Shown: positions 2,350-45,042 of the stretch, piece by piece
How positions within the stretch are numbered: the stretch's first letter is position 1
Layout: each line of letters opens with the position of its first letter
Assembly: GCA_028291345.1 (NCBI GenBank)
Contig: JAQGIF010000090.1
Span: 1 to 64,000 of the forward strand
Reading direction: 5' to 3'
Length of the DNA: 64,000 bases
DNA from: Rhodospirillales bacterium
Lineage (GTDB): Bacteria; Pseudomonadota; Alphaproteobacteria; BOG-932; Roseiterribacteraceae
Program-made: the position numbers and the translations under genes
Notes under the pieces: generated by a model
Database searches by the model: none
Seen by the model: the letters and a program-made list of their open reading frames with translations, nothing else
Told to the model about the DNA's origin: nothing

Positions 2350-2619
2350 GGTTTGCCTTAAATTGGAAAAGCGACAGATTGTCCTTTTATTTGGCACAAA
2401 CCTAACATCACCTCGACGGCTCGGATCATTCAATTTTCTGAAGCGAGCGATAGAAAAGCGTGCGCCCTCGCGCTTTGGGCACCGACGCGCATCCCATCGG
2501 CTTTTTTTATGACCTAATATGCCATCGGCTATTGGCGTGACCTTCGCCAGGCAAATAGCGTGTCCTTGGTGAGTTGCCATTCGGTAGGCGGGATACGCTC
2601 GATCGCGAAGGCGGTGCTG

Positions 2620-4212: not shown

Positions 4213-4295
4213 AATGTGTGAACTAGAAGCCAAATTTGACCGCCTCCTATATCGACGCGTTATGATCCTCGCCCAGTCCCGGCCACGAGGTTGAA

Positions 4296-5237: not shown

Positions 5238-6148
5238 GCGAACAAGTCGACGCTACAATAAAACCAATCATCGGCGGCATCGCCTGGTCGACGATGACTA
5301 AAGGTGCGCGAAACCCATCAAGATTGGTCAAGTTTTTTCGCCGCCACCCGGAAATAGCGTGGGGCGGATTGTTATTGATGATAGTCACCTTGCTTTCAAT
5401 CTTTGCACCGCTGTTGGGAACGGTTGATCCACGCGCCCTTTCGACCGGCAACCGGCTGAAAGCACCGTCACCGGAGCATTGGTTCGGTACCGATATGCTG
5501 GGGCGCGATCTATATTCGCGGGTGCTGTACGGCGGGCGAATATCGCTGTCCATAGGTGTGTCAGCCGCCGCACTCTCCGCATTCTTCGGAACCGCTTTTG
5601 GCTTGCTGTCGGCCTTTGGCGCTCTTCTGGATGGCGTAATTATGCGGATCATGGATGGGATCATGTCGATTCCGGCAATTCTGCTGGCGATTGCGCTGAT
5701 GGCGGTGGCTGGAGCTTCGATCGAGAATGTCGTTTTCGCGGTGACGATCGTCGAGGCGCCGCGCGTCGCCCGTCTTATCCGCGGGGTCGTCCTGTCGCTA
5801 CGTGATCAACCATATGTTGAGGCCGCGATTGCCGCTGGGTCCTCGATGCCAAAGATTATTCTACGCCATCTTCTTCCCGGTATTGTCGGTCCACTGATTG
5901 TCCAGGCGACATTCGTTTGGGCGACGGCGATGATACTGGAGGCGGCCTTGTCGTTCATCGGTGCCGGCACCCCGCCAAGTATTCCATCTTGGGGAAATAT
6001 CATGTCCGACGGTAAGGCGCTGTGGCAGGTGAAGCCTTTCCTGATTTTCATCCCTGCTGCCTTCCTTTCGGTGACCTTGCTGGCGGTCAATCTCCTCGGC
6101 GATGGGCTGCGCGATCTGCTCGACCCACGCATGTCGAAGAGGGGCTGA
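5234..6148 (+). CDS. ABC transporter permease, DppC/OppC type
   Basis: A 304-residue inner-membrane permease, partner of the upstream DppB-like protein. Family signatures seen are 'NRLKAPSPEHWFGTDMLGRDLYSRVLYGGRISL' (split over two adjacent blocks), the EAA loop 'YVEAAIAAGSSMPKIILRHLLPGI', 'GTPPSIPSWGNIMSDG' and the ending 'GDGLRDLLDPR'. The TTG start at 5234 overlaps the stop of the previous gene. An internal ATG at 5294 is an alternative and would still include the first membrane helix. Together the two permeases build the translocation path for the importer. Confidence 0.92.
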   Translation: MSEQVDATIKPIIGGIAWSTMTKGARNPSRLVKFFRRHPEIAWGGLLLMIVTLLSIFAPLLGTVDPRALSTGNRLKAPSPEHWFGTDMLGRDLYSRVLYGGRISLSIGVSAAALSAFFGTAFGLLSAFGALLDGVIMRIMDGIMSIPAILLAIALMAVAGASIENVVFAVTIVEAPRVARLIRGVVLSLRDQPYVEAAIAAGSSMPKIILRHLLPGIVGPLIVQATFVWATAMILEAALSFIGAGTPPSIPSWGNIMSDGKALWQVKPFLIFIPAAFLSVTLLAVNLLGDGLRDLLDPRMSKRG

Positions 6149-6151
6149 CAT

Positions 6152-7144
6152 TTGTCGTTGCTCGATGTCGATGATCTGAGGGTGCGCTTCGCATCCGATG
6201 AGGGCGATCTGAATGCGGTTAATGGCCTTTCCTTCAATGTGGAGGCCGGCGAGACCCTCGCTATCGTTGGCGAGTCCGGTTCCGGGAAATCGGTGACCGC
6301 GATGTCGGTGCTTCGGTTGTTGAAATGCCCACCGGCACGGATCTCGGGGCGGGTGCGTTTCAAGGGGAAGGATCTGCTCACCTTGCCAGAGTCCGAGATG
6401 CGGCGGATTCGCGGCAATCAGATCGGCATGATCTTTCAGGAGCCGATGTCGTCGCTTAACCCCGTGATGGCGGTCGGCGCCCAGATTGCGGAGTCGGTTA
6501 GGCTGCATCAAGGCGCTTCGCGCGCACAGGCGCGATCTCGCGCGCTCGATCTCCTCTCGCGGGTCGGCATTCCGGCCCCTGGACGGCGGATGCGTGAATA
6601 CCCCCATCAGTTGTCGGGTGGCATGCGACAGCGCGTGATGATCGCCATCGCGCTGGCCTGCAACCCTGAACTCCTGATCGCTGACGAACCGACGACCGCG
6701 CTCGACGTAACCGTACAGGCACAAATCCTGGATCTGATGCGTGCGCTGAAGGCCGAACTGGGCTCGGCGATCATCTTGATATCGCACGATCTAGGCGTGG
6801 TCGCCCAAATCGCCGACCGGGTGATCATCATGTATGCCGGGCGCATTGTGGAGCAGGGGACCATGAAGCGTATCTTGAGCGCGCCGATGCACCCTTATAC
6901 CAGAGGGCTGCTGGGCGCAATTCCACATCTGAGCGCCGCTCATCGATGCGATGGTCCGCGCCGACGGTTGGTCGAGATTCCTGGCGCAGTTCCCACCCTG
7001 CGCGAGCGTATTGCGGGCTGTGCCTTTGCCCCGCGCTGCGCCCACTGCACCCAGATTTGCCAGGCCATACTGCCGCCGATGGTCGTTACATCGGCCGGGC
7101 ATGAAGTTGCTTGCCACCACGCTGAGGCGCGTACAGCGGCATGA
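6152..7144 (+). CDS. ABC transporter ATP-binding protein, DppD/OppD type
   Basis: A 330-residue ATPase subunit. Walker A 'GESGSGKS' is near residues 40-47, the Q-loop is in '[11 protein letters not shown]', the signature motif is 'LSGGMRQR', Walker B is '[12 protein letters not shown]' and the H-loop is in 'ISHDLG'. The C-terminal oligopeptide/dipeptide-ATPase extension is present with its Cys-rich end '[11 protein letters not shown]'. The TTG start follows the permease stop by three bases and is preceded by GAGGGG. The next ATPase overlaps it by ATGA. Confidence 0.93.
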
Positions 7145-8139
7145 ACCCTATCCTCGAAGTCGTGTCGTTGAAAAAATACTACCCGGTACGGGGTGGTTTA
7201 CTGCCCGGGCGGCGCGGTTTTGTTCAGGCGGTGGAGGATGTCAGCTTCACCATCGCAAAGGGCGAAACCTTGTCGATCGTGGGTGAGAGCGGTTGCGGAA
7301 AATCGACTGTAGGCCGCGCCGTATTGCGGCTGACCGAGCCGACCGAAGGGCAGATACTGCTCGATGGCTGGCGCATCGACAAAATTCCGGTACCGCAACT
7401 CCGAAAACTGCGCCGGCATATGCAAGTCGTTTTCCAGGATCCGTTCTCCAGTCTCAGCCCGCGGATGACCGTGCGCGACATCATCGCCGAGCCGCTGGTG
7501 AATTTCGGCTTGGCCAAGGGACGCGCCGAAATTGACGATCGGGTCGCCGGCCTATTGGATAAGGTCCGGCTGCCGCGCGATGCGATGCGACGCTTGGCGC
7601 ACGAATTTTCTGGCGGACAGCGTCAACGCATCTGTATCGCTCGCGCGCTGGCACCCAGTCCGGCCCTAATCATCTGTGATGAGGCCGTATCTGCGCTCGA
7701 TGTGTCGTTCAAGGCCCAGATCGTCAATTTGCTGACCGACCTTCAGGATGAACTTGGCCTGGCTCTGCTGTTCATCAGCCATGACTTGGCAATCGTCGAA
7801 CATATGACCCATCGGGTCGCGGTTATGTATCTTGGGTCAATCGTGGAGATCGCTGATCGGCGATCTCTGTTCTCGCGTCCCAGCCACCCATACAGCCGGG
7901 CCTTGCTTTCATCTGTCCCGGCGCCCGATCCGACGGCGAGCCGCCGGCGCATCGTGCTAACAGGCGAAGTTCCCAGCCCCATCAATCCTCCTAGCGGCTG
8001 CCGTTTTCACACACGCTGTCCCTATGTCTTCGACCGCTGCCGCACTGAGGTTCCAAAATTGCGCGCACGGACCGAGGCGACCTATTTTGGCGCGACGCAA
8101 CTCGCAGCCTGCCACTTGGACGCTTTACCGGCGCTTTAA
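7141..8139 (+). CDS. ABC transporter ATP-binding protein, DppF/OppF type
   Basis: A 332-residue second ATPase of the importer. Walker A is 'GESGCGKS', the Q-loop block is 'VFQDPFSSLSPRMTV', the signature is 'FSGGQRQR' and Walker B is 'LIICDEAVSALD'. The C-terminal extension ends with 'GCRFHTRCPYVFDRC'. DppF-type subunits heterodimerise with the DppD-type subunit. It is the last gene of the operon and converges on the amidohydrolase gene with only eight bases between the two stop codons. Confidence 0.93.
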   Translation: MNPILEVVSLKKYYPVRGGLLPGRRGFVQAVEDVSFTIAKGETLSIVGESGCGKSTVGRAVLRLTEPTEGQILLDGWRIDKIPVPQLRKLRRHMQVVFQDPFSSLSPRMTVRDIIAEPLVNFGLAKGRAEIDDRVAGLLDKVRLPRDAMRRLAHEFSGGQRQRICIARALAPSPALIICDEAVSALDVSFKAQIVNLLTDLQDELGLALLFISHDLAIVEHMTHRVAVMYLGSIVEIADRRSLFSRPSHPYSRALLSSVPAPDPTASRRRIVLTGEVPSPINPPSGCRFHTRCPYVFDRCRTEVPKLRARTEATYFGATQLAACHLDALPAL

Positions 8140-8147
8140 GCTGCGCA

Positions 8148-9521
8148 TTACGCTGCGGCGGGGGCACCGTTGGCGTGCGGCCTGAGGAAAGCGCCGTATC
8201 CTGGTTCGTTCACAACTTTGCTGCCGTCGAACGCCAGTGTGCCGCGCACATAAGTGGCGCTGACGCGCGCCCGCATCTCACGGCCGTCGAAGGCACTCCA
8301 TTGCACCGCGGACAGGCTTTTGGACGCGTCGAAGATAAAGCGTCCGGGTTCCAACACGACGATATCCGCGTCCGCGCCGATATCGAACGATCCCTTGCGG
8401 TCGCGTAACAGGAAATGCCGGGCCGGCCCTTCGCAGAGCATCTTTACCGCGAGCGTGGGTGACAGGCCGTGCTCCTCGCATCCCGTCCAGAAAGCGGGCA
8501 GCAAGGTTTCCAGCCCAGGGCCGCCGGACGCATTCTTGAAGATATTCGGATCGGACTTTCGCTCCAAACCCCATGAAACATGGTCCGACGACACGAAATC
8601 GCAGTGTCCCGCAGCGATATGGGTCCAGAGACGTTCGACCTCGGCGCGCGGGCGTACCGGCGGATAGTGTTTCAGCTTCGCACCCAGCCGGCGCATGTCG
8701 TTCTCATGGTCCAACATTAAATACTGAACGCAAGTTTCGATCGCTACCTTGTGCCCTGCGCGTTTGTATTCTTCGCAAACCTCAAAACCCCGCGCCAAGG
8801 AGCAATGGACCACGGCTGCGCGCGCGCCTGTCAAAGCACCGAGTTCATAGATCGTGACGGTCGCCAGACTCTCGACCAATGGCGGATGCGCCCGCCCGAA
8901 GGCATCCCAGCCGGTGTCGCCGGCCTCGGTAAGCTGGGCGATATTCTTGCGAGTCAGTTCTTGATCCTGGTTATGGACGCCGCAGGCGAGACCCGCAGGC
9001 GCAATCAGTCGGAATGCATCGAAAAGAACATCTTCGGAAATCCGTGGAAAGCGCACAGGCGCTGCTTCGAATGTCGAGAATTTAAACGCGCAGGCCCCGG
9101 CTTCGATCAGGCCAGGGATTGTCTCGGTACCGGCTGCCTCCGAGATCGTCGCATACAGCGCGACATCGACATGAGATTCACGCTCGACAAGGCTGATTTT
9201 GGCGCGCAGCAGGTCGGCATGCCAGACCGGCTCTGGATCGTCATACGGCATATCGATCATACTGGTGACACCGCCGGCCGCCGCCGCGCGCGAGGCCCAG
9301 CCAATTCCTTCCTGGTTGGCCTGGCTACCGGAGTGGACCTGCCCGTCGATGACTCCGGGAATTACCCATTGCCCGGTAGCATCGAGAAAATCGCGACCTG
9401 CAGGAGGCGTGGCGTCGCCAACCAAGGCGATCTTCCCATCGGAAACTGCAACGAAACCATTTTCGATAATTCGATCGGCGGTGACGATAGTGCCGCGAAC
9501 GACAAGGTCAAAATCACCCAT
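8148..9521 (-). CDS. cyclic amidohydrolase, dihydroorotase/allantoinase/hydantoinase family
   Basis: A 457-residue TIM-barrel amidohydrolase. The N-terminal small beta domain reads 'FDLVVRGTIVTADRIIENGFVAV' and runs into 'GQWVIPGVIDG'. The usual D-x-H-x-H metal motif here reads D-G-Q-V-H, so the first His is Gln (residue 61 from the chosen start). Other expected ligands are present: Lys in 'CAFKFSTFE' (carbamylated in the family), His in 'VVHCS', and Asp in 'SSDHVSWG'. The ATG at 9521 was chosen because AGCAGG lies about nine bases upstream; a TTG at 9530 is possible. Family members open cyclic amides such as hydantoins, dihydropyrimidines or allantoin. The altered ligand may change metal content or activity. 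Divergent from the tandem-LysR gene. Confidence 0.85.
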   Translation of the reverse strand: MGDFDLVVRGTIVTADRIIENGFVAVSDGKIALVGDATPPAGRDFLDATGQWVIPGVIDGQVHSGSQANQEGIGWASRAAAAGGVTSMIDMPYDDPEPVWHADLLRAKISLVERESHVDVALYATISEAAGTETIPGLIEAGACAFKFSTFEAAPVRFPRISEDVLFDAFRLIAPAGLACGVHNQDQELTRKNIAQLTEAGDTGWDAFGRAHPPLVESLATVTIYELGALTGARAAVVHCSLARGFEVCEEYKRAGHKVAIETCVQYLMLDHENDMRRLGAKLKHYPPVRPRAEVERLWTHIAAGHCDFVSSDHVSWGLERKSDPNIFKNASGGPGLETLLPAFWTGCEEHGLSPTLAVKMLCEGPARHFLLRDRKGSFDIGADADIVVLEPGRFIFDASKSLSAVQWSAFDGREMRARVSATYVRGTLAFDGSKVVNEPGYGAFLRPHANGAPAAA

Positions 9522-9843
9522 TGTGAACAACCTGCTGCTTTTAAGAGTCTGAACTCAGGTTTGATTCTAATTCCGGCTTTACAGCCAAAAGGATCGTTTC
9601 CGGAAGTTTGCTGCGAAATTTCACAGCTTCAGATTAGGCAGTGCTGGGATTGCATGGGTAATAGTAATTGCCGACCAAAAACATCGCATTTCTTGAGATG
9701 CCTGCCGGAGACTTTCGGCCAATGACAACATGGCGCACCTTTATGGCTGGATCAGTCCCGGTTACCGTGGCATTGTGCGATGCAGCAGAGATGCATGGAC
9801 TCGTTTGTCCGAAGAGCTGCGAAAGGATTGTTGGCGACGACCG
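9522..9843. other. divergent intergenic region between amidohydrolase and tandem-LysR regulator
   Basis: Roughly 320 bases, AT-richer than the flanking genes. It should contain the promoters of both divergent genes, and the LysR-type protein is the obvious candidate to act here. No convincing -35/-10 pair or T-N11-A box was pinned down by eye. If the regulator starts at the upstream ATG at 9730, the region is about 100 bases shorter. Confidence 0.4.
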
Positions 9844-11766
9844 ATGGTTGCAAGCCCCAACGATATAGAGCGCGCCCCTCGATCGGTGATGAGCCTCACC
9901 CAGATCCTCTCTTTCTTGACCCTCGTTGAAGAGGGCGGGGTTGCGCGGGCGTCTAAACGATTGGGCGTCGGACATTCCACGGTCAGCGCGCATAGCAAGC
10001 TCATTGGCGAGGAAATCGGCCGTCATCAGTTTAGCAGGACTCCAGGCGGGTTTACGGTAACCGCTGCCGGATTGGACGCCTATAACCGCCTTCGCGCGTT
10101 CGTTGCTCACGCCAGTTTTTGCTTCAATTATTTTCGACGTGAAGCGACGGTTGCCGCGAGCTTTGTGACTGTAGCGATGCCGTCCGGCTTTCCCGGATCA
10201 ATGCTGGATTTAGCGGCCAAAAAAGTCAGCCTCCATCTGACAAAAACCGCGCCCGAGATCTGCCTTGTTCCTGCGTATGGCGAAGTCTCACCGACAGAGG
10301 ATCTACTTGGGCTATATTACGGTGAAGCAGAGACCGACGCTCTAACCATTCGGGATCGTTGGATATTGGTTCGCTCCGGTGCGAATATCGGATGGAGCGA
10401 GCGTGTATTGAGTCGCGCCGATCTATTCGATCAGAGAATTCAGGTCCCGAAACTGCCGGCTGAGCTGCATGGAAGTCTTTTGACTCTCGCCGAGATGGCG
10501 CATTTTTCGCTGGAATGGTCGGATAGCGGCATTCAGGGGATTCTTTCTAGTGCTTCTCAACTTCAGAAGTTCTGTGCGATCGTACCGGAAAGTCTTCTTA
10601 ACGGCGGGATGGCTGCCGAGTATTTTGAGTGCGTAGCGATCGAATCTACGGATTGCGACCCAAAAATCTCGATCTTCTGTGCCGCGTACCCTCTTATCGC
10701 CGCCAGGTTGCATGCCGAATTGCAAATGTTGATCCAGGCAAACACTGGTTGCGCGGTGCCGCCGGGCGAACCGGTGCCTTCGGAACCCGAGGCACTTTCG
10801 CTTAAGCACTGCCGGTCCTTCATCGCGCTTTACGAGGAGGGTAACGTCCGGCGCGCGGCGCAGAGACTTTCGATCGTACAACCCGCATTGACCGTGCAAC
10901 TGCATCATATAGAGGAGCAGGCGGGGTGTTCGCTTTTTACGCGTTCCCATCACGGGCTTCAGGCGAACGAACGGGCGGACGTGCTCTATGGGTTGCTCCG
11001 CCCCCTGATTGCGGAATTCAATGCGACTTTGGTTCATCTGCGCTCGGCAGTGAAAAAGGGCGTCTCCCCGGTCCGGATCGGGCTCATTCCGGCACTGGAC
11101 GACGAAAGCCTGATGTCCGAGGGTTTTGCCACAGCTCTCGATAAATGGTCCAGGACGTACGGCGATGGCGTCGCTCAGGTCATGGAAGGTTATTCAAGTA
11201 CTCTGGTGCGATGGTTGCATTCCGGAAAGATCGATTTCGCTTTGATCGACCGGGTGTTCATGGATCCGGCGTTGATCTTCGAGCCGATAGCAGAAGATAC
11301 TATGGCTGTGGTGGTCGATAGTGCTTCCGGGCTAATTCGTCCCGGCCCGGTTACAGTCGAACAACTCGCGCAGCTACCTCTGGTTCTGCCTTCGAGCCGT
11401 CATGGGCTTAGAACCTTGCTCGCGCAAACGCTCCGGCAGCGTGGACTTTCGTTGCAGCCGCGTTTCGAGGTGGATTCGATGGCGGGCTGTCTGAGTTTGG
11501 TCAAGATCGCCCGATATGCGACCATTCTACCCATGGGCTCGGTCTATAAGAGTCGCGATCGGCGCCGGCTTTCAGTCCATGAAATCCGGGAGCCGAGGAT
11601 CATTCGGACAATGTGCCTTGCGCGGTCGCGCGTTAAGCCGAGCAGCCCAGCAGAGCGTAATTTCCTGGAGGAGCTGAGATTGGCCTTTCTCGATAGCGGC
11701 GATCACCGCGAATCCGGGATGAACATCATGGCGCCGCAACGGGCGGAGCCATCACACGTATCCTAG
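9844..11766 (+). CDS. double LysR-type transcriptional regulator (two LysR units in one polypeptide)
   Basis: A 640-residue protein, about twice the LysR norm of ~300. A first LysR winged helix begins 'MSLTQILSFLTLVEEGGVARASKRLGVGHSTVSAH' (split here at the helix-turn-helix) and is followed by about 230 residues resembling a diverged effector domain. Near residue 316 a second LysR helix-turn-helix starts: 'SFIALYEEGNVRRAAQRLSI', then 'QPALTVQLHHIEEQ' and 'LFTRSHHGL'. A canonical effector domain follows ('VRIGLIPALDDE', 'LPLVLPSSRHGLRTLL'). Start codons at 9730, 9844 or 9889 are all possible and none has a good ribosome site; 9889 matches the usual LysR N-terminus. Likely regulates the divergent amidohydrolase and perhaps the downstream monooxygenase and receptor, which is inference. 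Confidence 0.8.
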   Translation: MVASPNDIERAPRSVMSLTQILSFLTLVEEGGVARASKRLGVGHSTVSAHSKLIGEEIGRHQFSRTPGGFTVTAAGLDAYNRLRAFVAHASFCFNYFRREATVAASFVTVAMPSGFPGSMLDLAAKKVSLHLTKTAPEICLVPAYGEVSPTEDLLGLYYGEAETDALTIRDRWILVRSGANIGWSERVLSRADLFDQRIQVPKLPAELHGSLLTLAEMAHFSLEWSDSGIQGILSSASQLQKFCAIVPESLLNGGMAAEYFECVAIESTDCDPKISIFCAAYPLIAARLHAELQMLIQANTGCAVPPGEPVPSEPEALSLKHCRSFIALYEEGNVRRAAQRLSIVQPALTVQLHHIEEQAGCSLFTRSHHGLQANERADVLYGLLRPLIAEFNATLVHLRSAVKKGVSPVRIGLIPALDDESLMSEGFATALDKWSRTYGDGVAQVMEGYSSTLVRWLHSGKIDFALIDRVFMDPALIFEPIAEDTMAVVVDSASGLIRPGPVTVEQLAQLPLVLPSSRHGLRTLLAQTLRQRGLSLQPRFEVDSMAGCLSLVKIARYATILPMGSVYKSRDRRRLSVHEIREPRIIRTMCLARSRVKPSSPAERNFLEELRLAFLDSGDHRESGMNIMAPQRAEPSHVS

Positions 11767-11917
11767 GCATTGCAAATACCGCGCCTTTGTTACGGGCTCC
11801 TTTGCATCCAAGGTTTTCTATCGCATCTCCCGCAAGTTTGAATGACTCCACCGATCCTGCCGGATGCTAAGCCAAAATGGAATAAATTTCGCGGCCCGCT
11901 ATTGTTGGAGGTTCGTG

Positions 11918-13207
11918 TTGAGCAAGTTTCATCTTGGTTGGTTTCTTGGACCAGGCATCACGATACAAGGCTGGAACGAGCCGGGATTTGGTCACGGTTA
12001 TGATTGGACAAAGCCTGATCTGTTCGTCGATGCGGCGCGCGCGTTAGAGCGTGCTTGCTTTGACGTCTTGATCCTGGAAGACACGTCGGCCGTTCCATAC
12101 ACCTATAAAGGCAGTATGGATTTCTATCTGAAGCACGCGGCGATGACGCCGAAGTTCGATCCGGTAATGCTAACGCCGTATCTAATCGCGGCGACTTCCA
12201 AAATCGGTCTCGCTCCGACGCTGACGACCACTTTCTATCCGCCCTGGCTGCTCGCGCGCACGATGGCGACCTTGGACCATTATTCCAGCGGTCGCATCGG
12301 CTGGAATATCGTGACCGCCACCAGCGACGCGGCCGCGCAGAATTACGGGTTGGATAAGCAGATCGAACATGACTTGCGCTATGACATGGCCGATGAATTT
12401 ATCGATTGCGTCACACAGTTATGGGAGGCGTGGGAGCCTGACGCCGTGGTGATGGATGAGGCTACCGGGATGTTTATCGATCCGACTAAGGTTAAGGCGA
12501 TCCATTTCGAGGGAAAATATTACAAGACGCGTGGACCCCTGAACGTGCCACGATCACCGCAGGGCAAGCCGGTATTCGTAGCGCCGGGCGGTTCTCCGCG
12601 CGGGCGCAAATTCAGCGGCCGCAACGCGGAAATCGTGCTTGCAGGCGGTGCCACGGCCGCGGACATGAAAGACTATCGCGAAGAGGTTTTGAAGAACGCT
12701 GTTGCCTACGGCCGCGATCCTAAGACGGTCAAAACCTTGTTCACCTGTGTGCCGACGATCGTAAAGAGCAAAAGCGATGTCGAGGACACTAAGTACATGA
12801 TGCAGAAGATGAAGGAAAAGCGGATCGAGCACGGACTCGCCGCAATGTCCTTCCTCTCCGGTATCGATTTTTCGAAATTTGATCTCGACGCACCGGTTGG
12901 GGAGATCAAAACCAATGGCATGCAGACCATGCTGAAAAGCTTTGGGAACCCGAACGATTCACTGCGCCAGATCATGAGTCGGCCCAACGAGTTCAGCACG
13001 ATGGTCGGCACGGCCGACGCGATCGCTGGACTGATGCAAGATACGATGGAAGAGGTCGGCGGCGATGGCTTTCTGATCGCCGGTCAATTTAAACCCAAAT
13101 ATGTCACGTCTATTGTCGATGAGCTTGTCCCGGCCTTGCAAAAGCGGCAACTAACCCGCACAGAATATGGCCACGAACAGTTCCGAGATAATCTTATGGC
13201 CTTCTGA
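11918..13207 (+). CDS. FMN-dependent monooxygenase of the NtaA/SnaA/DszA (SoxA) bacterial luciferase-like family
   Basis: A 429-residue cytoplasmic flavin monooxygenase that uses FMNH2 supplied by a separate reductase. Family landmarks are 'WFLGPGITIQGW' at the N-terminus, 'ARALERACFDVLILED', 'LARTMATLDHYSSGRIGWNIVTA', 'EGKYYKTRGPLNVPRSPQGKPV' (two adjacent blocks) and 'AGGSPRG'-like loops. The TTG start at 11918 was chosen because GGAGG lies six bases upstream; the longer frame from 11864 has no such site. Characterised relatives attack nitrilotriacetate, EDTA, dibenzothiophene sulfone, dimethyl sulfide or pristinamycin precursors. No flavin reductase gene is seen next door. Confidence 0.88.
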   Translation: MSKFHLGWFLGPGITIQGWNEPGFGHGYDWTKPDLFVDAARALERACFDVLILEDTSAVPYTYKGSMDFYLKHAAMTPKFDPVMLTPYLIAATSKIGLAPTLTTTFYPPWLLARTMATLDHYSSGRIGWNIVTATSDAAAQNYGLDKQIEHDLRYDMADEFIDCVTQLWEAWEPDAVVMDEATGMFIDPTKVKAIHFEGKYYKTRGPLNVPRSPQGKPVFVAPGGSPRGRKFSGRNAEIVLAGGATAADMKDYREEVLKNAVAYGRDPKTVKTLFTCVPTIVKSKSDVEDTKYMMQKMKEKRIEHGLAAMSFLSGIDFSKFDLDAPVGEIKTNGMQTMLKSFGNPNDSLRQIMSRPNEFSTMVGTADAIAGLMQDTMEEVGGDGFLIAGQFKPKYVTSIVDELVPALQKRQLTRTEYGHEQFRDNLMAF

Positions 13208-13601
13208 GAACTTTGCGGCGTAGGCCGATCTGGTGGCGTTGCGAATGCAATCGCAGGAGATTTCTACATTCGAGTTCATTTCAAAATACGCACAGCAGAG
13301 AATCAACGATCGATTTGATCGTGCATGCTCGGGTGTCAACGGTTGGCCCGGGCGTCGATCGCAAGTTTGAGAGCGCTCAAATTGCCGCACCGCGACAATT
13401 CTATTTCCTCCGGCCGATAAAAGATCGGTGCACCACAAATGGCACTAGCTGAAATAGCGGCCGTCGAAATAACAACGTAAAAGCAATGTGTTAGCAGCTT
13501 ACAAGATTTCGAACGCGGGAATTGGATTCGCTGAAACGACCGCTGCCCGCCTTTTTCAAAAAAATTCGAAATTCTTCGTAAGAAAATTATTTTCTTGAGG
13601 G

Positions 13602-13629
13602 TTGACTCGGCGCCGCAACGCAATATACC
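13602..13629 (+). promoter_or_regulatory. candidate sigma-70-type promoter for the TonB receptor-OmpA gene
   Basis: TTGACT at 13602-13607 and TATACC at 13624-13629 are separated by 16 bases, close to the housekeeping consensus spacing. Transcription from here would give a leader of roughly 130 bases before the ATG at 13769. The assignment is by pattern only. Confidence 0.4.
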
Positions 13630-13720
13630 TTTCGAGGTAAGAGATTTGGAGTTTTGGAGCCGTCCGGCGCCAAGCCCAATAAATCCACAATTTAATCCTT
13701 GTTTGTCGGTTTTTGAATGC

Positions 13721-13740
13721 ACTTCCGCGTGTACGGAAGT
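13721..13740 (+). promoter_or_regulatory. perfect interrupted palindrome in the leader of the receptor gene
   Basis: ACTTCCG, a six-base spacer and CGGAAGT form a perfect 7-bp inverted repeat at 13721-13740, ending 12 bases before the AAGGAGGG ribosome site at 13753-13760. It could be an operator for a dimeric regulator or a small RNA hairpin next to the ribosome site. The sequence does not tell which. Confidence 0.45.
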
Positions 13741-13768
13741 AAATCCAAAAAAAAGGAGGGGTGTTGTC

Positions 13769-16570
13769 ATGCGCGCTGACGGTAACAAAATCTTACGTTC
13801 AATACATTTTTCACGAATCTTGCTTGCTTCCGCCGCAGCGATATCGACGCTAAGCTATCAGGCGATGGCGCAGGATATTCCAGGCGATCAACCGGGAGCA
13901 TCAACTGGTCAACTTGAGGAGGTTTTAGTAACAGCCCGGCGGCGATCCGAAAACCTGCAAGCGACGCCCGTCGCCGTTACAGCTCTTTCCCCGGCCGAAA
14001 TTGCACAAACCAACACACGTAATTTTCAAGATTTGCGCGGCCTCGTGCCGAATTTGGAAATCACACCGCTCAATTCTGGTGGTGGCCTTAATCTGTCAGT
14101 CCGAGGCATCGGGCAAACTAGTACACAGGTCAACGTTGATGCGAAGGTCGGGTTTTATTTGGATGATCTTTACATCGCGCGCGCCGACGGCAACGCTCTT
14201 CACTTTTATGACATCGACACCCTCCAAGTTCTAAAGGGGCCGCAGGGGACTCTATTCGGCAAGAATACGTTGGGCGGCGCGGTTCTGCTGAACACGAAAC
14301 GGCCGGGCGACGAATATGGCGGCTATGTCGACGTGCGCGTTGGGAATTATGATCGCATCGATACAGAAGGTGCGGTCAATATTCCGATAACCGACAAAAT
14401 ATTGACCCGGTTCAGTTTTAGAACTGAAAACGCGGACGGTTATATTACTCATAAGCTCGATTCCGGAACCAGCAACAATCAAGACGATAAATCCGGCCGT
14501 ATTCAAATTCGTGTATTACCGACCGACGGGCTGACTGTCGATCTGCTCGGCGAGTATAACGAGCTCGATGACAACGGTCAGCCTAGTATCGCGGTGGGGT
14601 GCAACCCCAATGCTAGCTACCAAAAAAACTATAACGCCCTCCATCTTGTGCCATTTTGTACTTCATACCCGTCTTTGAATAAGCAATACGAAGTCTATGG
14701 CGGTGCCACGCTCAGCATCCCGACGGATTCACTAATCACTGACAAAGGTATTGCCGGCGCTTTGTCCAATCAGGCGGGGCTGACCTATGGGGGTCACCCC
14801 AGCCCATTCGACAAGGCCAGGGTTGGAACGCTCAATCTTCGCATTAATTATCAAATCAATGATGAGCTAACGATTAAATCGGTAACCGGATTCCGCCGGG
14901 GCGTGTCGAATTTCTATACGGCTGCGGAGGATGTTCCTAATGACATCTATAGCGAGCTCGACCACACGACAACCGAACAGATCAGCCAGGAGCTTGATCT
15001 CAGCGGCAATTATTTCGATGGTGCGCTGACCTTTGTCTCAGGGCTCTACTATATCAATCAGGTAACGCGGTTTTCCCAGAATACCGGCCCGGACTGGATC
15101 GATCCGATCGGTTACTCTTATAATGCCAGCAATAATTTTTCCAGCTATGCCGCTTTCATTCAGGGCACTTATAAAATATTCGACGATTTGGCGCTTACAC
15201 TCGGCGCTCGCTATAATTATGATCGTAAGGAAGCCCAAAGCTCAGTTTATCTTCAGAGGGTCTTCACCGGTTCCTGTTCGACGTTTCAAGGGGCGTTCAC
15301 GACAGGCGCGGCGTGCGGCGGCTATGCAACGGGCAACGGGGCGCATAATTGGTACGCTTTTGATCCACGCGCGCAGCTGCAGTACCAAGTCACGCCCGAC
15401 ATAATGACCTATGTCAGCGCGACGCACGGCTATGAGTCCGGGGGTTTCAATCAGCAGCTCGGAGCCACGCTTCCCGGCAATTCGCTGATCCCGTATGCCC
15501 GTGAGCATATTTGGGACTACGAGGGAGGAGTTAAGACCGAGTGGCTCGATCATCGGCTGCGAGTCAATGTAGATGGATTTTATCAACAATTCTCCAACTA
15601 TCAGGCAACAGTAATCCTCACCTACAACGGCGTGACCACTCGGGCCATTCAAAACGCAGCTTCGGTGCATGAAGATGGCGTCGAACTGGAAGTGGAGGCC
15701 CTCCCCACTCCGGACCTCGAGATCCGGGCCAATGGCGCATATCTCGACCAAGCCTACGATCAGATTGGGGCCGGCGTAACGGCCTTCACCTTGAGCAGTC
15801 CCGTGACGTCCGCTCCGCGATTCGAGGGCAGCATCGCGGTGGATTATACCTTTCATCTGCCATCCGACGCCACTGTGGTCACCGACCTCAACTATCGCTG
15901 GGTCGATAGCAAGCCGGGATGCACCAGCCCGGTGGGAGCTTGCACAGCGCCGGCGTACGGACTCCTAGGGGGCAAGATCACCTACAACAGCCCTGATGGA
16001 GTCTGGAGCGCTGGTTTGTGGGGCTCGAACCTGACCGGCAAATACTATTATTACGCGATCAATACACTGGGCACAGCGCTGGCAAACATGGGTGTCGGCA
16101 CAGTAACTCCTGGGCAGCCCCGTGAGTTCGGTGCTGAGGTAAAATACAATTTTGGTGGGGCCTCAGCAGCTGCCGAAACCGCGTCGGCACCTTATGTCCC
16201 GCCGCCGGTCGTCGCCCCGGCGGTTGCCCACAGCTATATGGTCTTCTTCGACTTCAACAAGTCGGACCTGACGCCCCAGGCGGCCAACATTGTGGATCAG
16301 GCCGCGCATAATGCGGGGCCGGCCAAGGTGACCAAGCTGGAAGTGACCGGTCACACCGACACGGCCGGGTCTGACGCCTACAACATGCGTCTCAGCCGCC
16401 GCCGCGCGGAATCGGTTGCGGCCCAGTTGGAGAAGGACGGAATTCCTTCCAGCGAGATCGCGATTTTCGCCAAGGGCAAGCATGACCTGCTGGTGCCGAC
16501 CGCCGATGGCGTGAAGGAGCCGCAGAACCGGCGTGTTCAGATCGTATATTCCGGTGAACCCGCCGCATAA
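13769..16570 (+). CDS. TonB-dependent receptor fused to a C-terminal OmpA-type peptidoglycan-binding domain
   Basis: A 933-residue outer-membrane protein. It has a signal peptide ending AMA|QD near residue 35, a TonB box in 'EEVLVTARRR', a plug domain ('AVTALSPAEIAQTN', 'LNLSVRGIG', 'LKGPQGTLFGKNTLGGAV') and a 22-strand-type barrel to about residue 795. The barrel closes with 'FGAEVKYNF', but the frame continues through a Pro/Ala linker into an OmpA C domain (about residues 822-930): 'VFFDFNKSDLT', 'VTGHTDTAGS', 'LSRRRAESV' and 'EPQNRRVQI'. The Asp (HTD) and Arg (SRRR) that hold diaminopimelate in OmpA are present. The start has AAGGAGGG eight bases upstream. Neighbours suggest uptake of the substrate of the monooxygenase or lyase-like proteins. 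Receptors normally end at the barrel, so this fusion is unusual. Confidence 0.92.
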   Translation: MRADGNKILRSIHFSRILLASAAAISTLSYQAMAQDIPGDQPGASTGQLEEVLVTARRRSENLQATPVAVTALSPAEIAQTNTRNFQDLRGLVPNLEITPLNSGGGLNLSVRGIGQTSTQVNVDAKVGFYLDDLYIARADGNALHFYDIDTLQVLKGPQGTLFGKNTLGGAVLLNTKRPGDEYGGYVDVRVGNYDRIDTEGAVNIPITDKILTRFSFRTENADGYITHKLDSGTSNNQDDKSGRIQIRVLPTDGLTVDLLGEYNELDDNGQPSIAVGCNPNASYQKNYNALHLVPFCTSYPSLNKQYEVYGGATLSIPTDSLITDKGIAGALSNQAGLTYGGHPSPFDKARVGTLNLRINYQINDELTIKSVTGFRRGVSNFYTAAEDVPNDIYSELDHTTTEQISQELDLSGNYFDGALTFVSGLYYINQVTRFSQNTGPDWIDPIGYSYNASNNFSSYAAFIQGTYKIFDDLALTLGARYNYDRKEAQSSVYLQRVFTGSCSTFQGAFTTGAACGGYATGNGAHNWYAFDPRAQLQYQVTPDIMTYVSATHGYESGGFNQQLGATLPGNSLIPYAREHIWDYEGGVKTEWLDHRLRVNVDGFYQQFSNYQATVILTYNGVTTRAIQNAASVHEDGVELEVEALPTPDLEIRANGAYLDQAYDQIGAGVTAFTLSSPVTSAPRFEGSIAVDYTFHLPSDATVVTDLNYRWVDSKPGCTSPVGACTAPAYGLLGGKITYNSPDGVWSAGLWGSNLTGKYYYYAINTLGTALANMGVGTVTPGQPREFGAEVKYNFGGASAAAETASAPYVPPPVVAPAVAHSYMVFFDFNKSDLTPQAANIVDQAAHNAGPAKVTKLEVTGHTDTAGSDAYNMRLSRRRAESVAAQLEKDGIPSSEIAIFAKGKHDLLVPTADGVKEPQNRRVQIVYSGEPAA

Positions 16571-16702: not shown

Positions 16703-18496
16703 ATGTTCTTGCGGCGACGGAAAAAGTGGCTGTCAGGCTATTTGTTTATTTTTGCGTGCGGCATTGTGCCGGCTTCTGCCCAAGTAACGCCTTACGAAGC
16801 AATTCATCCGATATCAGCCGACAAGACGATCACGCTTACCGGCCGAGACATGACAATCGATCAATTGATACAAATCGCGCGCGACGGTGCAAAGGTCCAA
16901 TTGACCGATGAGGCGCGCCGGCGATCGGCGGATGCTTATGGCTTGCTTCTAGAGGGCGCTACCGAGGGCGTTGCGATTTACGGCTTCAATCGTGGCTCCG
17001 GCGCGCAGCGTGAAACCAAATTATTCGAGGGCGATCCATCATCTCCTGCTAATGAAGGCGGTCAACGCCGGCGGGAAGAGGCGCGGTTCCGTGAAGAGGG
17101 GCCGCAGGATGGCTACGGCCCGGAAATCGCAAGCGAAGAAATCGTGCGCTCCGCGATGGCGGTTCGTGCGAACGCTATGAGTTACGACGCAGCCAGCCCT
17201 GAATTGACTCAAATGCTGGTCGATATGTTGAACCACCGCGTAACGCCGGTTGTCCAATCACGTGGCAGCATCGGTGAGGGCGACCTTGAGCAGATGCACA
17301 ATATCGCCGGCGCAATGGTTGGCGAGGGTGATGCCTATTTCGAGGGCGTGCGCATGCCCGCACTGACCGCTCTAGAAAAGGCTGGGTTGAGGCCTCTGAA
17401 AATCGCCGCCAACGATGATTTCCGGACGCTGACCAGCAGCGATGCCTATACAACGGGTCAAGCGGCCCTGCTTGTGTCAGATGGAAAACGGGCACTCGAC
17501 TGGGCGGACTTGATCTATGCGATGGATTTGGACGGCATGAACAGCAGTGTTACGCCGCTCAGCCAACCGGCTCGCATCGGTCGTCCTTTCCAATGGCTTA
17601 ATTGGAATGCGGAGCGAGTCTTAGATATGTTGAAGGGTAGCTATCTGTTCGATGATGACCCGACGCGGATCATCCAGGATCCGGAAAGTTTGCGGGCTTC
17701 CTCCGTTCGCCAAGGTTCCGCATGGCAGGCATGGGCGGCGTTGAAACAGATCGTTCAAATTCAAATGAACTCATCGGACCATAATCCCGTCGTCCGAGTT
17801 GGGGCCGAACCAAAAGATTCCTGGGAACTCGGCACCCAACAATTCATGAAATACTACGTGAAGGGTGGGAAGCACTCGGATGGCAAGCACGGCTATATTC
17901 TATCGAACGCAAACTGGGATCCCTATCCGCTTGTGAATCAAGTCGAGGCCTTTTCCCTTGCGCTTGCCAATATGGATGTGGCGGTTGTGCTGCGGATAGA
18001 ACGCTTCAACAATCCTTTCTTCACGGTGATCACGCCGAAACAAATACTGGACCGCTCTCAAACTGAAGGCGTTGCGAGCTTTGCGCCGCCGGCTAATGAG
18101 AAAGTCGCCGTTGATCTTTGGCAGGACATTCAAGCTCAGGCGAGCCCCGTAATGCCCGAAGGTCAGGCGATCGTTTCGACGGTGGAGGATCTTCAAGGGC
18201 AATCACGGCTCAAGATCGCCCGCGCGCGGCAAGTGGTCGCCGATACGATCGATCTGCTGGGCCAAGATTTTCTGACCGCAACCTTTTGGATGGATTTACG
18301 TCAGGGCCAGGACCCCAGCCGCACTTTCGGGGCGGCACCAACCGCAGCATGGCAAGCATTTCGAAAAATTATGGCGTTTCAGCGCAGCCCAGCGGTGCGG
18401 TTTAGCGTACCGCCCGGAGCGATCGCGGCAACGTTTCTCAGGTCCAATTCAGCGGCGGAATTCATGTCGGCAGCCGAGAACACGCTTCCAAATTGA
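16703..18496 (+). CDS. exported aromatic amino acid lyase (HAL/PAL) homologue lacking the MIO Ala-Ser-Gly
   Basis: A 597-residue protein with a signal peptide (basic FLRRRKKW, hydrophobic core, ASA|Q near residue 26), so periplasmic or secreted. The body follows the histidine/phenylalanine ammonia-lyase fold: 'TLTGRDMTIDQLIQIARDGAKV', the catalytic-Tyr loop 'IYGFNRGSG' (Tyr93), 'AVRANAMS', 'QDPESLRAS' (Arg331) and 'MNSSDHNPVV' (Asn356 to Pro362). In HAL/PAL the motif G-S-V-G-A-S-G-D-L makes the MIO cofactor. Here residues 188-195 read G-S-I-G-E-G-D-L, one residue shorter and with no Ser, so MIO cannot form as known. AGGAG lies six bases before the ATG. A paralogue at 21776-23572 shares the same change. 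Known family members are cytoplasmic. Function unknown: binding protein, different chemistry or inactive. Confidence 0.85.
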   Translation: MFLRRRKKWLSGYLFIFACGIVPASAQVTPYEAIHPISADKTITLTGRDMTIDQLIQIARDGAKVQLTDEARRRSADAYGLLLEGATEGVAIYGFNRGSGAQRETKLFEGDPSSPANEGGQRRREEARFREEGPQDGYGPEIASEEIVRSAMAVRANAMSYDAASPELTQMLVDMLNHRVTPVVQSRGSIGEGDLEQMHNIAGAMVGEGDAYFEGVRMPALTALEKAGLRPLKIAANDDFRTLTSSDAYTTGQAALLVSDGKRALDWADLIYAMDLDGMNSSVTPLSQPARIGRPFQWLNWNAERVLDMLKGSYLFDDDPTRIIQDPESLRASSVRQGSAWQAWAALKQIVQIQMNSSDHNPVVRVGAEPKDSWELGTQQFMKYYVKGGKHSDGKHGYILSNANWDPYPLVNQVEAFSLALANMDVAVVLRIERFNNPFFTVITPKQILDRSQTEGVASFAPPANEKVAVDLWQDIQAQASPVMPEGQAIVSTVEDLQGQSRLKIARARQVVADTIDLLGQDFLTATFWMDLRQGQDPSRTFGAAPTAAWQAFRKIMAFQRSPAVRFSVPPGAIAATFLRSNSAAEFMSAAENTLPN

Positions 18497-18620: not shown

Positions 18621-20396
18621 ATGTCTGTCGAGACCAGCCAAGCCGTGACGCATTTATTGACGGCGGCACTTGCTCATTCGCAGGCCGGTCGCCTTCATGA
18701 AGCCGCTATCGCATATCGCCAGTTGCTGCTCGTCGTTCCCGATCATGCAACCGCCAACTATAATTTGGCGGTAACGTTGAAGGGGCTTGGACGGCTGGAT
18801 GAAGCGGCCGCCCAATATCAGCGAACGCTTATCGTTAAACCTGACAACCCCAAAGCTCATAATAATCTGGGCGCAATTCTGACGCTTCAGGGAAAAGACC
18901 ACGCCGCCGCCGCTCATTATGAGCGGGCGTTAGTTCTTCAACCGCATTATGCTAACGCCCATTACAACTACGCCAATCTTCTGAGAAAACGCGGGGAAAT
19001 TCCCCGCGCCATTACCCACTACTGGCAAGCTTTGCTGAGCAAGCCGGACGATGCCGAGATACGTAACAATCTCGGTATAGCGTTGGTGGCCAATGGCCAA
19101 GGGGACGAGGCAATCCTACAGTTTCAGCAGGCGTTGGCCCTTCGTCCGGATTATGCTGAAGCCTATAGTAATCTGGGATCCGCATTCGAGGACCAGGGAC
19201 GCACCGACGAAAGCCTTGCCTGCTTCAATATGGCTCTCGAACTGAAACCAGCTTACGCCGACGCGCATTGCAACCTTGGACGCGCGCTGCACGCCCAAGA
19301 CCGCCTCGCCGAGGCCGAACTGCATTACGAGCTTGCGCTCGCTCTCGATCCAACACATGCCGAATCACATAATAATTTTGGTTTTCTGTCGCAGCAGGTT
19401 GGCCGGATAGACGTGGCGCTAGCCCGCTATGGGCGTGCTCAGGAACTCAAGCCGAACTATGCCGACGCGCATTGGAATGAAGCATTGGCGCGCTTACTGT
19501 CAGGTGACTTCGCCGCAGGCTGGCGCAAATATGAGTGGCGTTGGAGGCGAAAGGAAACGCCCCCAAGGATATTCGCCGTGCCACTGTGGGATGGTGGCGA
19601 CCTGACCGGGAAGACCATTCTGCTTCATGCGGAACAAGGATACGGCGACGCCATCCAATTCATCCGGTATGCCGCGCTTGTCAAAAAGCGGGGCGGTCTA
19701 GTCCTCGTCGAATGTTCGGAACCGTTGCGGAGGCTTTTCGCCAGTGCCCCCGGTATCGACCGGTTGGTTTCCGCCGATGAACCTTTCCCGCTTTTCGATT
19801 GCCATGCGCCCTTGCTCAGCCTGCCGGCCATACTAGGCACGATGCTCGAGACAATTCCCGCGGACACTCCTTATCTTCGCGCCGAGTCCGACCTTGTGCA
19901 AAAATGGCGAAATCAATTTTCTCAACCGTCCCGGCGCAAGATCGGGCTGGCATGGCGCGGTAATCCGACGCACAGCAACGACCGCAAAAGGTCGATACCG
20001 GCTACCGCGATTGCAGACCTGGGCCGCATGGCTGGGATCGAATTGATCAGCTTGCAGGTTGATACTACGCTCGACGAAATCGCCGCCTTTTCACCGGTGA
20101 TTCTCTACAATATGGGTTCATCTCTCCACGACTGGGCGGATACCGCGGCCTTGGTCGAGGCGCTCGACCTGGTGATAACGGTGGACACATCGATTGCGCA
20201 TCTGGCGGGAGCATTGGGTAAGCCAGTTTGGGTGCTCCTGCCATTTGCGCCGGACTGGCGGTGGCTTCTCGACCGATGTGATAGCCCCTGGTATCCGACC
20301 ATGCGTTTGTTCCGACAGCACGCGCCAGGAGATTGGACGCGGGTCCTAAAGGAAATTCGCGCGGCTTTGGGGAGTGTCAGCATCGCCGGCTCATGA
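18621..20396 (+). CDS. TPR-repeat protein with C-terminal GT-B glycosyltransferase-like domain
   Basis: A 591-residue protein. Residues from about 8 to 310 are 34-residue tetratricopeptide repeats with the A-x-x-x-Y-x-x-A-L pattern ('AAAQYQRTLIVKPDNPKAHNNLG' and the like, at least eight copies). The C-terminal 250 residues ('WRWRRKETPPRIFAVPLW', 'LHAEQGYGDAIQFIRYA', 'KIGLAWRGNPTHSNDRKRS', 'VDTSIAHLAGALGKPVWVLL') match the heptosyltransferase/GT9-like domain found behind TPRs in many proteobacteria. There is no signal peptide, so cytoplasmic. Family members are often involved in protein or flagellin glycosylation, but most are uncharacterised. It lies 124 bp behind the exported lyase-like gene on the same strand. 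Confidence 0.85.
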   Translation: MSVETSQAVTHLLTAALAHSQAGRLHEAAIAYRQLLLVVPDHATANYNLAVTLKGLGRLDEAAAQYQRTLIVKPDNPKAHNNLGAILTLQGKDHAAAAHYERALVLQPHYANAHYNYANLLRKRGEIPRAITHYWQALLSKPDDAEIRNNLGIALVANGQGDEAILQFQQALALRPDYAEAYSNLGSAFEDQGRTDESLACFNMALELKPAYADAHCNLGRALHAQDRLAEAELHYELALALDPTHAESHNNFGFLSQQVGRIDVALARYGRAQELKPNYADAHWNEALARLLSGDFAAGWRKYEWRWRRKETPPRIFAVPLWDGGDLTGKTILLHAEQGYGDAIQFIRYAALVKKRGGLVLVECSEPLRRLFASAPGIDRLVSADEPFPLFDCHAPLLSLPAILGTMLETIPADTPYLRAESDLVQKWRNQFSQPSRRKIGLAWRGNPTHSNDRKRSIPATAIADLGRMAGIELISLQVDTTLDEIAAFSPVILYNMGSSLHDWADTAALVEALDLVITVDTSIAHLAGALGKPVWVLLPFAPDWRWLLDRCDSPWYPTMRLFRQHAPGDWTRVLKEIRAALGSVSIAGS

Positions 20397-21775: not shown

Positions 21776-23572
21776 CTATTTTTTCGGATAGGCCTTGCCG
21801 TCGTTTGCCTCGGGTTCGCTAATCGGCGCAAACATGGATGCCGGATTGGTCCTGATAAAAGTGATCGCTGTCAGGGAGGGCGAAAGTGTAGCCGCCGGGT
21901 CGGGCTTTAGGGGCGCAACCTTGCGGAACGCTTCCCAGACCGCCGTCGCCGCGGGGCCAAAAGTCCGTGTCGCATCCTGTGCTCTCCGGACGTCCAGCCA
22001 CCGCGTTCCGGTCGCCAGGTCGGCCCCAAGTAGGCGGAACGTATCGTCGACCGCGGCTTGGGCACGCTGCGCCTTAATGCGAGTCTGGGCCTCCAGCTCC
22101 TCGACGCCGTCGCTGCCACCATAACCCTCAGGCGGAACTGGCATGATCTGAGCCTGAACGTCCTGCCAGATCTCATGCTGGCTATATCCGTTGCGATAAG
22201 GACCGCCCAAGGTTTTCAGGATGTCCTGTGTACCTAGACCGGTAAAGAATTCGCTGCCGAACCGCTCGGTCCGCAGCATGATTGCGATGTCCATGTTAGC
22301 GAGCGCGATCGTAAAGGCTTCCAGGTCGTTGGCGAGCGGATATGGATCCCAATTGGCGTTGGAAACGATAAAGCCGTGTTTACCGTTACTGTTTTTCCCA
22401 CCCTTCACATAATATTTCAGCATTTCAGGCGTGTTCAAATCCCAGGAATCCTGGGGCGAAATATCCGCTCGAATCGCCGGGTTATGATCCGAGCTATTCA
22501 ACTGGGTTACGACATCGTCGCGCAGCATGGCCCACATCTGCCATGCCGAGGCTTGGCGGATCGAAGAGGCGCGCAGGCTTTCTGGATCCTGTATGATCCG
22601 TCCTTTATCGTCGCTGAACAGATAGCTGCCCTTGATCATTTCCTTGACACGGTTCGCATCCCAATTCAGCCATTTGAACGGCCGGTCGGTCTGAACCAGG
22701 TAGCTGAGGGGCGTGACACTGCTATTCATGCCGTTAATGTCGATCGCGTAGGTCAGATCGGCCCATTGAAGCGCCTGATGTGCGTCGGCAACGATGAAAA
22801 CCGCCTGCGCCGTTGCATAGGCATCGCTGCTGGTGAGCGCATTGTCGTCCGCCGCGAAAGGTTGGATCGGCGTCAGGCCGGCCTGCTGAAGCGCCTGCGC
22901 CGCGGGCACGCGAACGCCTTTGTAGTAGGCGTCGCCTGCACCGACCATGGTGGCGCCGATATTATTCAAAATGGGCAGGTCACCTTCGCCCACGGTTCCA
23001 CGCGACTGCATCACCGGAGTCACCCCCTTATTCAGGAGGTCGAGCAACATTTGGGCCAACTGCGGGCTTGGCGCGTTGTAAGTCATGGCATTGGCGCGGA
23101 CGACCATGACCGCGCGCACCAGTGCTTCGTCAAGGATTTCCGGTGGATCGCCGCTGATTGCGCCACGCTGGAAATTCGCCAGCATTCGCTTTTCCAGAAA
23201 AGCCTTATTCTCCGGCGTTAAGGGATCACCATCGAAAATATGGGTTTCACGCTGGCCGCCGGCGCCGCGCGTGAACCAATAGACCGAAACGCCTTCAGCT
23301 GGTGCCTCGAGCAATAACCCATAATTATTTATCTCTCGCTGCTTGGCTTCCGCACTTAGCTGGACTTTTGCGCCACCGCGAGCGACCGCAAGAACCTGCT
23401 CGATCGTCAAATCGCGGCCGGTCAAGGTGATCGTCTTATCGCCGTTCGCCCAATTGATTGCGCGGTATGCCTGTCCGCTATCTGCCTGAGCTTCGAGCGC
23501 GAAAGACGCCATGGCAGCTATTAACAAGGCGCAGAAAGCACTGCCGTCAGGCAATCGCCATTGAATTTGCAT
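21776..23572 (-). CDS. second exported aromatic amino acid lyase homologue lacking the MIO Ala-Ser-Gly
   Basis: A 598-residue paralogue of the protein at 16703-18496, clearly similar along its whole length. A signal peptide ends near ALEAQA|DS (about residue 30). Matching blocks are 'TLTGRDLTIEQVLAVARGGAKV', 'VYWFTRGAG' (Tyr98), 'VRANAMTYNAPSPQLAQMLLDL', 'QDPESLRASS' and 'LNSSDHNPAI'. The MIO region reads G-T-V-G-E-G-D-L with Glu196 where Ala-Ser should be, so the deletion and replacement are shared by both copies. It is in the opposite orientation to the first copy, and the TPR gene, a transposase remnant and parDE lie between them. About 200 bp after its stop, towards parDE, holds nothing recognisable. 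Role unknown. Confidence 0.85.
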   Translation of the reverse strand: MQIQWRLPDGSAFCALLIAAMASFALEAQADSGQAYRAINWANGDKTITLTGRDLTIEQVLAVARGGAKVQLSAEAKQREINNYGLLLEAPAEGVSVYWFTRGAGGQRETHIFDGDPLTPENKAFLEKRMLANFQRGAISGDPPEILDEALVRAVMVVRANAMTYNAPSPQLAQMLLDLLNKGVTPVMQSRGTVGEGDLPILNNIGATMVGAGDAYYKGVRVPAAQALQQAGLTPIQPFAADDNALTSSDAYATAQAVFIVADAHQALQWADLTYAIDINGMNSSVTPLSYLVQTDRPFKWLNWDANRVKEMIKGSYLFSDDKGRIIQDPESLRASSIRQASAWQMWAMLRDDVVTQLNSSDHNPAIRADISPQDSWDLNTPEMLKYYVKGGKNSNGKHGFIVSNANWDPYPLANDLEAFTIALANMDIAIMLRTERFGSEFFTGLGTQDILKTLGGPYRNGYSQHEIWQDVQAQIMPVPPEGYGGSDGVEELEAQTRIKAQRAQAAVDDTFRLLGADLATGTRWLDVRRAQDATRTFGPAATAVWEAFRKVAPLKPDPAATLSPSLTAITFIRTNPASMFAPISEPEANDGKAYPKK

Positions 23573-44866: not shown

Positions 44867-45042
44867 ATTGCTGTCCTATAAAAACCCAGGAACGCTATCT
44901 TGGCATGCGCTTCGCGCTGGGGTAAGGCAATTTCCATGTGGTGTCTGCCAGATTGATATTGCGCAGGAAACTCCGCTCTATTCGCCGCATTCAACCGCCG
45001 CTACAAAGGCGGAATATAAAAACGCGTAGGAGAGGGAAGGTT

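Follow-up and report, generated by a model that had tools for sequence, protein, structure and literature searches.

A putative periplasmic betaine lyase of the ergothionase kind, lacking MIO, and its exported relatives in Proteobacteria

Results

The gene at positions 16703-18496 of the window (the whole stretch of 64,000 nucleotides analyzed here, from a Rhodospirillales bacterium) very likely encodes an exported, MIO-independent lyase of the ergothionase kind. The substrate of this protein, P0001, is likely a trimethylammonium betaine, and the gene context in the window genome and its relatives points to ergothioneine. Taken broadly, as a periplasmic betaine lyase of ergothionase type acting on ergothioneine or a close imidazole betaine, the assignment is probable; for P0001 itself, we give ergothioneine or hercynine as the substrate a slightly better than even chance.

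The gene, its product and the former MIO site

The original prediction placed the reading frame correctly in coordinates, frame and length: it is intact and encodes 597 amino acids from an ATG preceded by AGGAG. The PF00221 profile matches residues 50-555 end to end (profile positions 1-466; E=1.4e-88; 298 bits against a gathering cut-off of 27.3 bits). The HutH equivalog TIGR01225 scores 146.6 bits, under its curated cut-off of 539, and in the profile search no NCBIfam model names the lyase itself. The features of the gene and of its paralogue in the window are as follows.

16703-18496, plus strand: P0001, exported MIO-less PF00221 lyase, putative periplasmic ergothionase-type trimethylamine-lyase (PF00221; best PDB match ergothionase 6S7J)
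16703-16780, plus strand: probable Sec signal peptide of P0001, residues 1-26, cleavage after ASA (inspection; hydrophobicity; low pLDDT at residues 1-25)
17258-17287, plus strand: former MIO site of P0001, SRGSIGEGDL, residues 186-195, with a one-residue deletion (alignments with HutH, ergothionase and about 70 relatives)
21776-23572, minus strand: P0002, second exported MIO-less paralogue, RGTVGEGDL (53% identity to P0001; PF00221, 283 bits)

The MIO tripeptide is absent, as had been read from the segment G-S-I-G-E-G-D-L. Aligned with the HutH of its own genome (contig C280; GSVGASGDL), P0001 (SRGS-IG-EGDL) is one residue shorter, has E in place of the HutH A and has no Ser; P0002 agrees with it in having lost the tripeptide. 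A string check found ASG nowhere in either window protein. Sequencing error and a hidden ASG were considered and rejected, because almost all family members have E-G-D-L, with E192 and D194 each found in 69 of them. Of the hallmarks first listed as remaining, the fold, the Tyr loop (IYGFNRGSG) and Q-D-x-x-x-L-R (QDPESLR) are kept; the motif given as L-N-S-x-x-N-P begins with L-N-S only in P0002, while in P0001 the corresponding NSSDHNP stands in the context M-N-S.

Relation to ergothionase and to MIO enzymes

The original prediction rested on the premise that all characterized relatives depend on MIO. This is wrong, since the closest characterized enzyme, ergothionase, which converts ergothioneine to trimethylamine and thiourocanic acid, is itself described as being without MIO (PMC13405746) and bears the same E-G-D deletion. 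A PDB sequence search with P0001 returned Treponema denticola ergothionase at E=2.5e-38 and next an archaeal HAL at 6.3e-23. An AlphaFold2 model of P0001 built from 49 family sequences (pLDDT 85.1, pTM 0.87) was compared with solved structures by Foldseek, which ranked three ergothionase chains first (E=8.8e-27; target TM 0.86) and then HAL (3.1e-22). In a quick IQ-TREE analysis of 86 rows, the P0001 family, ergothionase and ergothionase-type plasmid proteins fall together, apart from five MIO enzymes (SH-aLRT 99). The P0001 clade forms a sub-clade of its own, with a long branch leading to it (1.98 changes per column, in a quick tree with several long-branched rows).

P0001 and the T. denticola enzyme (6S7J/6S7Q) share the HAL fold, the absence of MIO, E-G-D with a one-residue deletion (S-S-I-G-E-G-D-I in ergothionase), N-R-G after the catalytic Tyr loop and the D-x-N-P segment, and ergothionase E411 is kept as E495 in P0001. 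They are only 24% identical in the structural alignment, and P0001 differs in its signal peptide, an insert of about 20 residues and NWDPY for NFE. The position of HAL Tyr280 is occupied by Tyr in HutH, Leu in ergothionase and Glu (E328) in P0001. The Tyr and Arg equivalents of ergothionase are kept in the P0001 clade, whereas that of Lys383 is not conserved.

The ergothionase-type proteins of Sinorhizobium, Burkholderia, Paraburkholderia and Paracoccus are likewise MIO-less, and some of them (L103, L106, L124) belong to ert clusters together with thiourocanate hydratase, ErtD and ErtE. They occupy separate tree branches, at about 30-33% identity to P0001, and several keep Lys at 383; where annotated, they are called HutH or aromatic amino acid ammonia-lyase. 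HutH, PAL, TAL and the aminomutases share with P0001 the PF00221 domain, the fold, the Tyr loop, QD...R and N-x-x-x-N-P, but they carry the ASG tripeptide and MIO, lack a signal peptide and form a separate group in the tree. Of the options first suggested, other chemistry in an enzyme that belongs to a distinct superfamily group is the best reading; P0001 groups with ergothionase apart from the MIO enzymes.

On the Klebsiella pneumoniae plasmid pKPC-5501, a gene annotated as an aromatic amino acid ammonia-lyase (L111, 1432-2964) adjoins hutC and hutD. It has GSVGYLIATAH at the MIO site, so ASG is seemingly missing there too.

Distribution, active-site conservation and paralogues

One scan of the genome collection (genome_contigs) identified 62 loci of the P0001 family. 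They are spread over Mesorhizobium, Labrys, Sphingomonas, Novosphingobium, acetic acid bacteria and many metagenome-assembled genomes (MAGs) from bogs and soil. In a class-wide sampling the family was matched in 4 of 385 genomes, a rarity estimate that is approximate because only three candidates were scored per genome.

Comparison of approximately 70 family proteins in one alignment revealed a nearly invariant active site (P0001 numbering): Y93 (69/70), R97 (70/70), E192 (69/69), D194 (69/70), N280 (70/70), R331 (69/70) and N404 (69/69), with D406 close to invariant. The clade is marked by Glu at the position of HAL Tyr280 (66/70), by Trp (W405) for the usual Phe after the conserved Asn and before D406, and by the insert of about 20 residues ahead of W405. 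Given the changes at E328, W405 and the Lys383 equivalent, and the insert, the substrate may differ from that of ergothionase.

The window genome encodes six exported copies, two in the window, three on contig C211 and one on C216, which argues for more than one substrate. It also encodes a non-exported divergent PF00221 member on C211 and, in a hut cluster on C280, a true HutH with ASG. The paralogue on C216 (L012, 7973-9688) has lost E-G-D and the arginine of QDPESLR and is shortened towards its C terminus; it looks to be decaying or non-catalytic. In another paralogue, C211b, the loop is changed.

The non-exported protein on C211 (L009, 18105-19634) is very divergent and has GQGGAGEI at the MIO site. 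Its homologues at L123 (about 6443) and L125 (about 1) lie alongside ErtD, ErtE, UbiD and UbiX, which suggests that another MIO-less activity takes part in this catabolism.

Export

P0001 is very probably exported by means of a Sec-type signal peptide. On inspection its N terminus reads MFLRRRKKWLSGYLFIFACGIVPASA|Q, and residues 1-25 of the model have pLDDT <50. An N-terminal hydrophobic segment (mean Kyte-Doolittle value of a 12-mer >=1.6) is present in 68 of the 69 testable family members. The signal peptide originally proposed is therefore upheld at the level of sequence. Predicted export is not special to the P0001 clade: among the ergothionase-type proteins, those of S. meliloti, S. sojae, Paraburkholderia, Burkholderia arboris and two Paracoccus also have signal-peptide-like N termini.

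Gene context in the window genome

The genes upstream and downstream of P0001 are listed below; G398 is a MAG with a similar gene island.

2560-4212, plus strand: ABC transporter substrate-binding protein, SBP_bac_5 (PF00496; 57% identical homologue in the G398 island)
4296-8139, plus strand: four genes of an ABC transporter, following that of the binding protein (all in the same order in the G398 island, at 55-63% identity)
4296-5237 and 5234-6148, plus strand: presumed ABC permeases
6152-7144 and 7141-8139, plus strand: ABC genes (7141-8139 an ATP-binding protein by NCBIfam HMM)
8148-9530, minus strand: ErtD, hydantoin-5-propionate amidohydrolase of ergothioneine utilisation (NF058538, 689.7 bits over 600)
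9730-11766, plus strand: LysR-type regulator, apparently a double-length fusion (LysR models on residues 357-650; HTH-like start in the N-terminal half by inspection only)
11864-13207, plus strand: NtaA/DmoA-family FMN-dependent monooxygenase (TIGR03860, 380 bits over 279.7)
13595-16570, plus strand: TonB-dependent receptor, OmpA domain at its C terminus, immediately upstream of the lyase (PF00593, PF07715, PF00691; probable true start 13769)
18621-20396, plus strand: TPR-repeat protein directly downstream of the lyase (multiple TPR models)

The ert pathway, as defined in NCBIfam, is represented by ErtD in the window and by ErtE, an N-carbamyl-L-glutamate amidohydrolase, on C211 (13392-14687; 564.2 bits over the cut-off of 520). 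Thiourocanate hydratase was not found in this genome, which is 97% complete; a HutU fragment at the edge of C280 was all that turned up. The presence of ErtD and ErtE implies that the unsaturated acid ends as hydantoin-5-propionate in the window genome.

Contig C211 carries, beside its three exported paralogues, DmmA (over its cut-off) and a HODM-type demethylase subunit. Further genes on C211 encode trimethylamine dehydrogenase (a full-length match to 1djn, 1286 bits), a GcvT-like protein, a type III glutamine synthetase and SoxAB-like proteins. Together these plausibly make up a near-complete route from trimethylamine through dimethylamine and methylamine to N-methylglutamate. UbiD/UbiX, which are encoded on C211 and occur in Komagataeibacter too, or the FMN monooxygenase may be part of another branch.

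Several recurrent neighbors were observed. TPR or sulfotransferase proteins recur beside the lyase at other loci. In several genomes, exported lyases have as a neighbor a small PF12974 (phosphonate-binding-like) protein (L009, 5726-6544; L102, 11727-12563), which is found beside the Polaromonas ergothionase-type gene as well. Both in the window (13595-16570) and at L009 (6673-9588), the TonB-dependent receptor that adjoins exported lyases carries an OmpA (peptidoglycan-binding) domain at its C terminus; such receptor-OmpA fusions look unusual. Elsewhere in the window, 44938-46734 encodes an FAD-dependent protein resembling 3-ketosteroid-delta-1-dehydrogenases (597 bits, below the cut-off of 789).

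Gene context in other genomes

In Sphingomonas formosensis (L069), an exported lyase is followed within 9 kb by thiourocanate hydratase (989.9 bits over 930), an MHS transporter, ErtE and ErtD. A second locus of this species combines a relative of the window TonB receptor, a lyase, FolD, a DmmD-like protein, DmmA and HODM proteins.

One contig of G398 unites, in a single stretch of approximately 40 kb, genes of the window with genes of the C211 type. It contains SoxB, thiourocanate hydratase, MHS, a TonB receptor 47% identical to that of the window and directly upstream of two exported lyases, dimethylamine monooxygenase and N-methylglutamate genes, UbiD, UbiX and ErtD. The same stretch has counterparts of window positions 1495-8139, namely a methyltransferase-like gene, a binding protein and four more genes of an ABC transporter, and an FMN (LLM) monooxygenase 68% identical to that at 11864-13207. 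In genome G393, which was found from its ErtD, thiourocanate hydratase, MHS, an exported ergothionase-type lyase, ErtD and ErtE stand in a row.

Of 45 lyase-bearing genomes or records, 7 have an ErtD that scores over its cut-off, vs. 3 of 368 others (Fisher p~1e-5, for sets unmatched in taxa). Typical ErtD is missing from most of the 45, and many lyase loci have demethylation genes without ert genes. The neighbors of the Mesorhizobium lyases look like unrelated housekeeping genes and are uninformative. In genome G043 (L128, about 6327), ErtE- and ErtD-like genes adjoin a lyase whose ASG is intact, and UbiX and UbiD are some 10 kb off; ErtD/ErtE clusters hence also occur with MIO enzymes.

Proposed mechanism and alternative readings

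From these observations we infer the following reaction, substrate, transport step and product path. A quaternary ammonium betaine, most likely ergothioneine or a close imidazole betaine such as hercynine, would cross the outer membrane, probably through the TonB-dependent receptor, to which its adjacency points. In the periplasm, P0001 and most of its paralogues would remove the beta proton and expel trimethylamine, leaving an unsaturated acid, which would be thiourocanate if ergothioneine is the substrate. MIO turns the amine of histidine or phenylalanine into a better leaving group. Since trimethylammonium, unlike the free amine of histidine, is already a good one, MIO would be dispensable, and with a betaine as substrate a lyase of the HAL fold can lose it, as ergothionase did; the E-G-D loop would occupy its place. 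Oxidation of the trimethylamine would then proceed in steps, through trimethylamine dehydrogenase, dimethylamine monooxygenase and the N-methylglutamate route. The acid would pass through hydantoin-5-propionate, the substrate of ErtD, and N-carbamoyl-glutamate, the substrate of ErtE, to glutamate.

The same elimination might instead serve other substrates, e.g., hercynine, tyrosine betaine, hypaphorine, phenylalanine betaine or dimethylated amines, with the exported paralogues sharing out plant- or fungus-derived betaines. The occurrence of up to six exported paralogues per genome, the changed E328 and W405 with the Lys383 equivalent gone, the failure to find thiourocanate hydratase in the window genome and the many loci with demethylation genes but no ert genes all fit such a division. 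So do UbiD/UbiX on C211 and in Komagataeibacter, as these enzymes can decarboxylate aryl-acrylates. On the other hand, the window ErtD and the C211 ErtE score over curated cut-offs, and the clade lies beside thiourocanate hydratase in S. formosensis and G398; we regard this reading as possible but rather unlikely.

Far less probable is a role of P0001 as a catalytically inactive betaine-binding or transport-accessory protein of the periplasm serving the TonB receptor, an option that the original prediction had raised in the form of a periplasmic binding protein. Its predicted export and its position next to the receptor agree with this, and the changes in the C216 copy and C211b mean that some copies may be non-catalytic. 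However, the catalytic residues of the parent enzymes are present in P0001, its Tyr, Arg, Glu, Asp and Asn positions being near-invariant over the aligned proteins, and a true ABC binding protein has its gene close by, at 2560-4212. An exported ammonia-lyase or aminomutase for ordinary aromatic amino acids, with another electrophile or a metal replacing MIO, would suit the predicted HAL/PAL fold (Foldseek prob 1.00), but we reject it as highly improbable on homology and gene context, given the grouping with ergothionase rather than MIO enzymes, the adjoining methylamine-pathway genes and the separate HutH with ASG in the hut cluster on C280.

Novelty and implications

While the kind of enzyme proposed for P0001, an ergothionase-type betaine lyase, is already known, the exported, TonB-receptor-linked clade with multiple paralogues and its tie to the trimethylamine pathway appear to be new. 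Neither this clade nor its trimethylamine link was described in the literature searched, and a search for periplasmic MIO-family or MIO-less lyases returned ergothionase only (both searches covered few subscription journals). Public records name such genes histidine ammonia-lyase or aromatic amino acid ammonia-lyase. A 2026 BLAST survey described ergothionase as restricted to a few genera, with its own caveat that divergent homologues might have escaped it (PMC13405746).

More speculatively, and with somewhat less than even confidence, we propose a large unnamed family of periplasmic betaine lyases that are fed by TonB receptors, with up to six paralogues per genome acting on different aromatic trimethylammonium substrates. 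Trimethylamine would be released outside the cytoplasm, and chemistry of the histidine-ammonia-lyase type would be linked to methylotrophic use of plant and fungal betaines.

If the assignment of P0001 as an exported ergothionase-type lyase is true, a divergent exported branch extends across α- and γ-Proteobacteria of soil, bogs, nodules and acetic-acid habitats and is tied, in several of these bacteria, to the use of methylamines. A misleading annotation would be corrected, and the family could be used to test how the HAL fold functions once MIO is gone. Estimates of the sites at which ergothioneine and other betaines are broken down would change as well.
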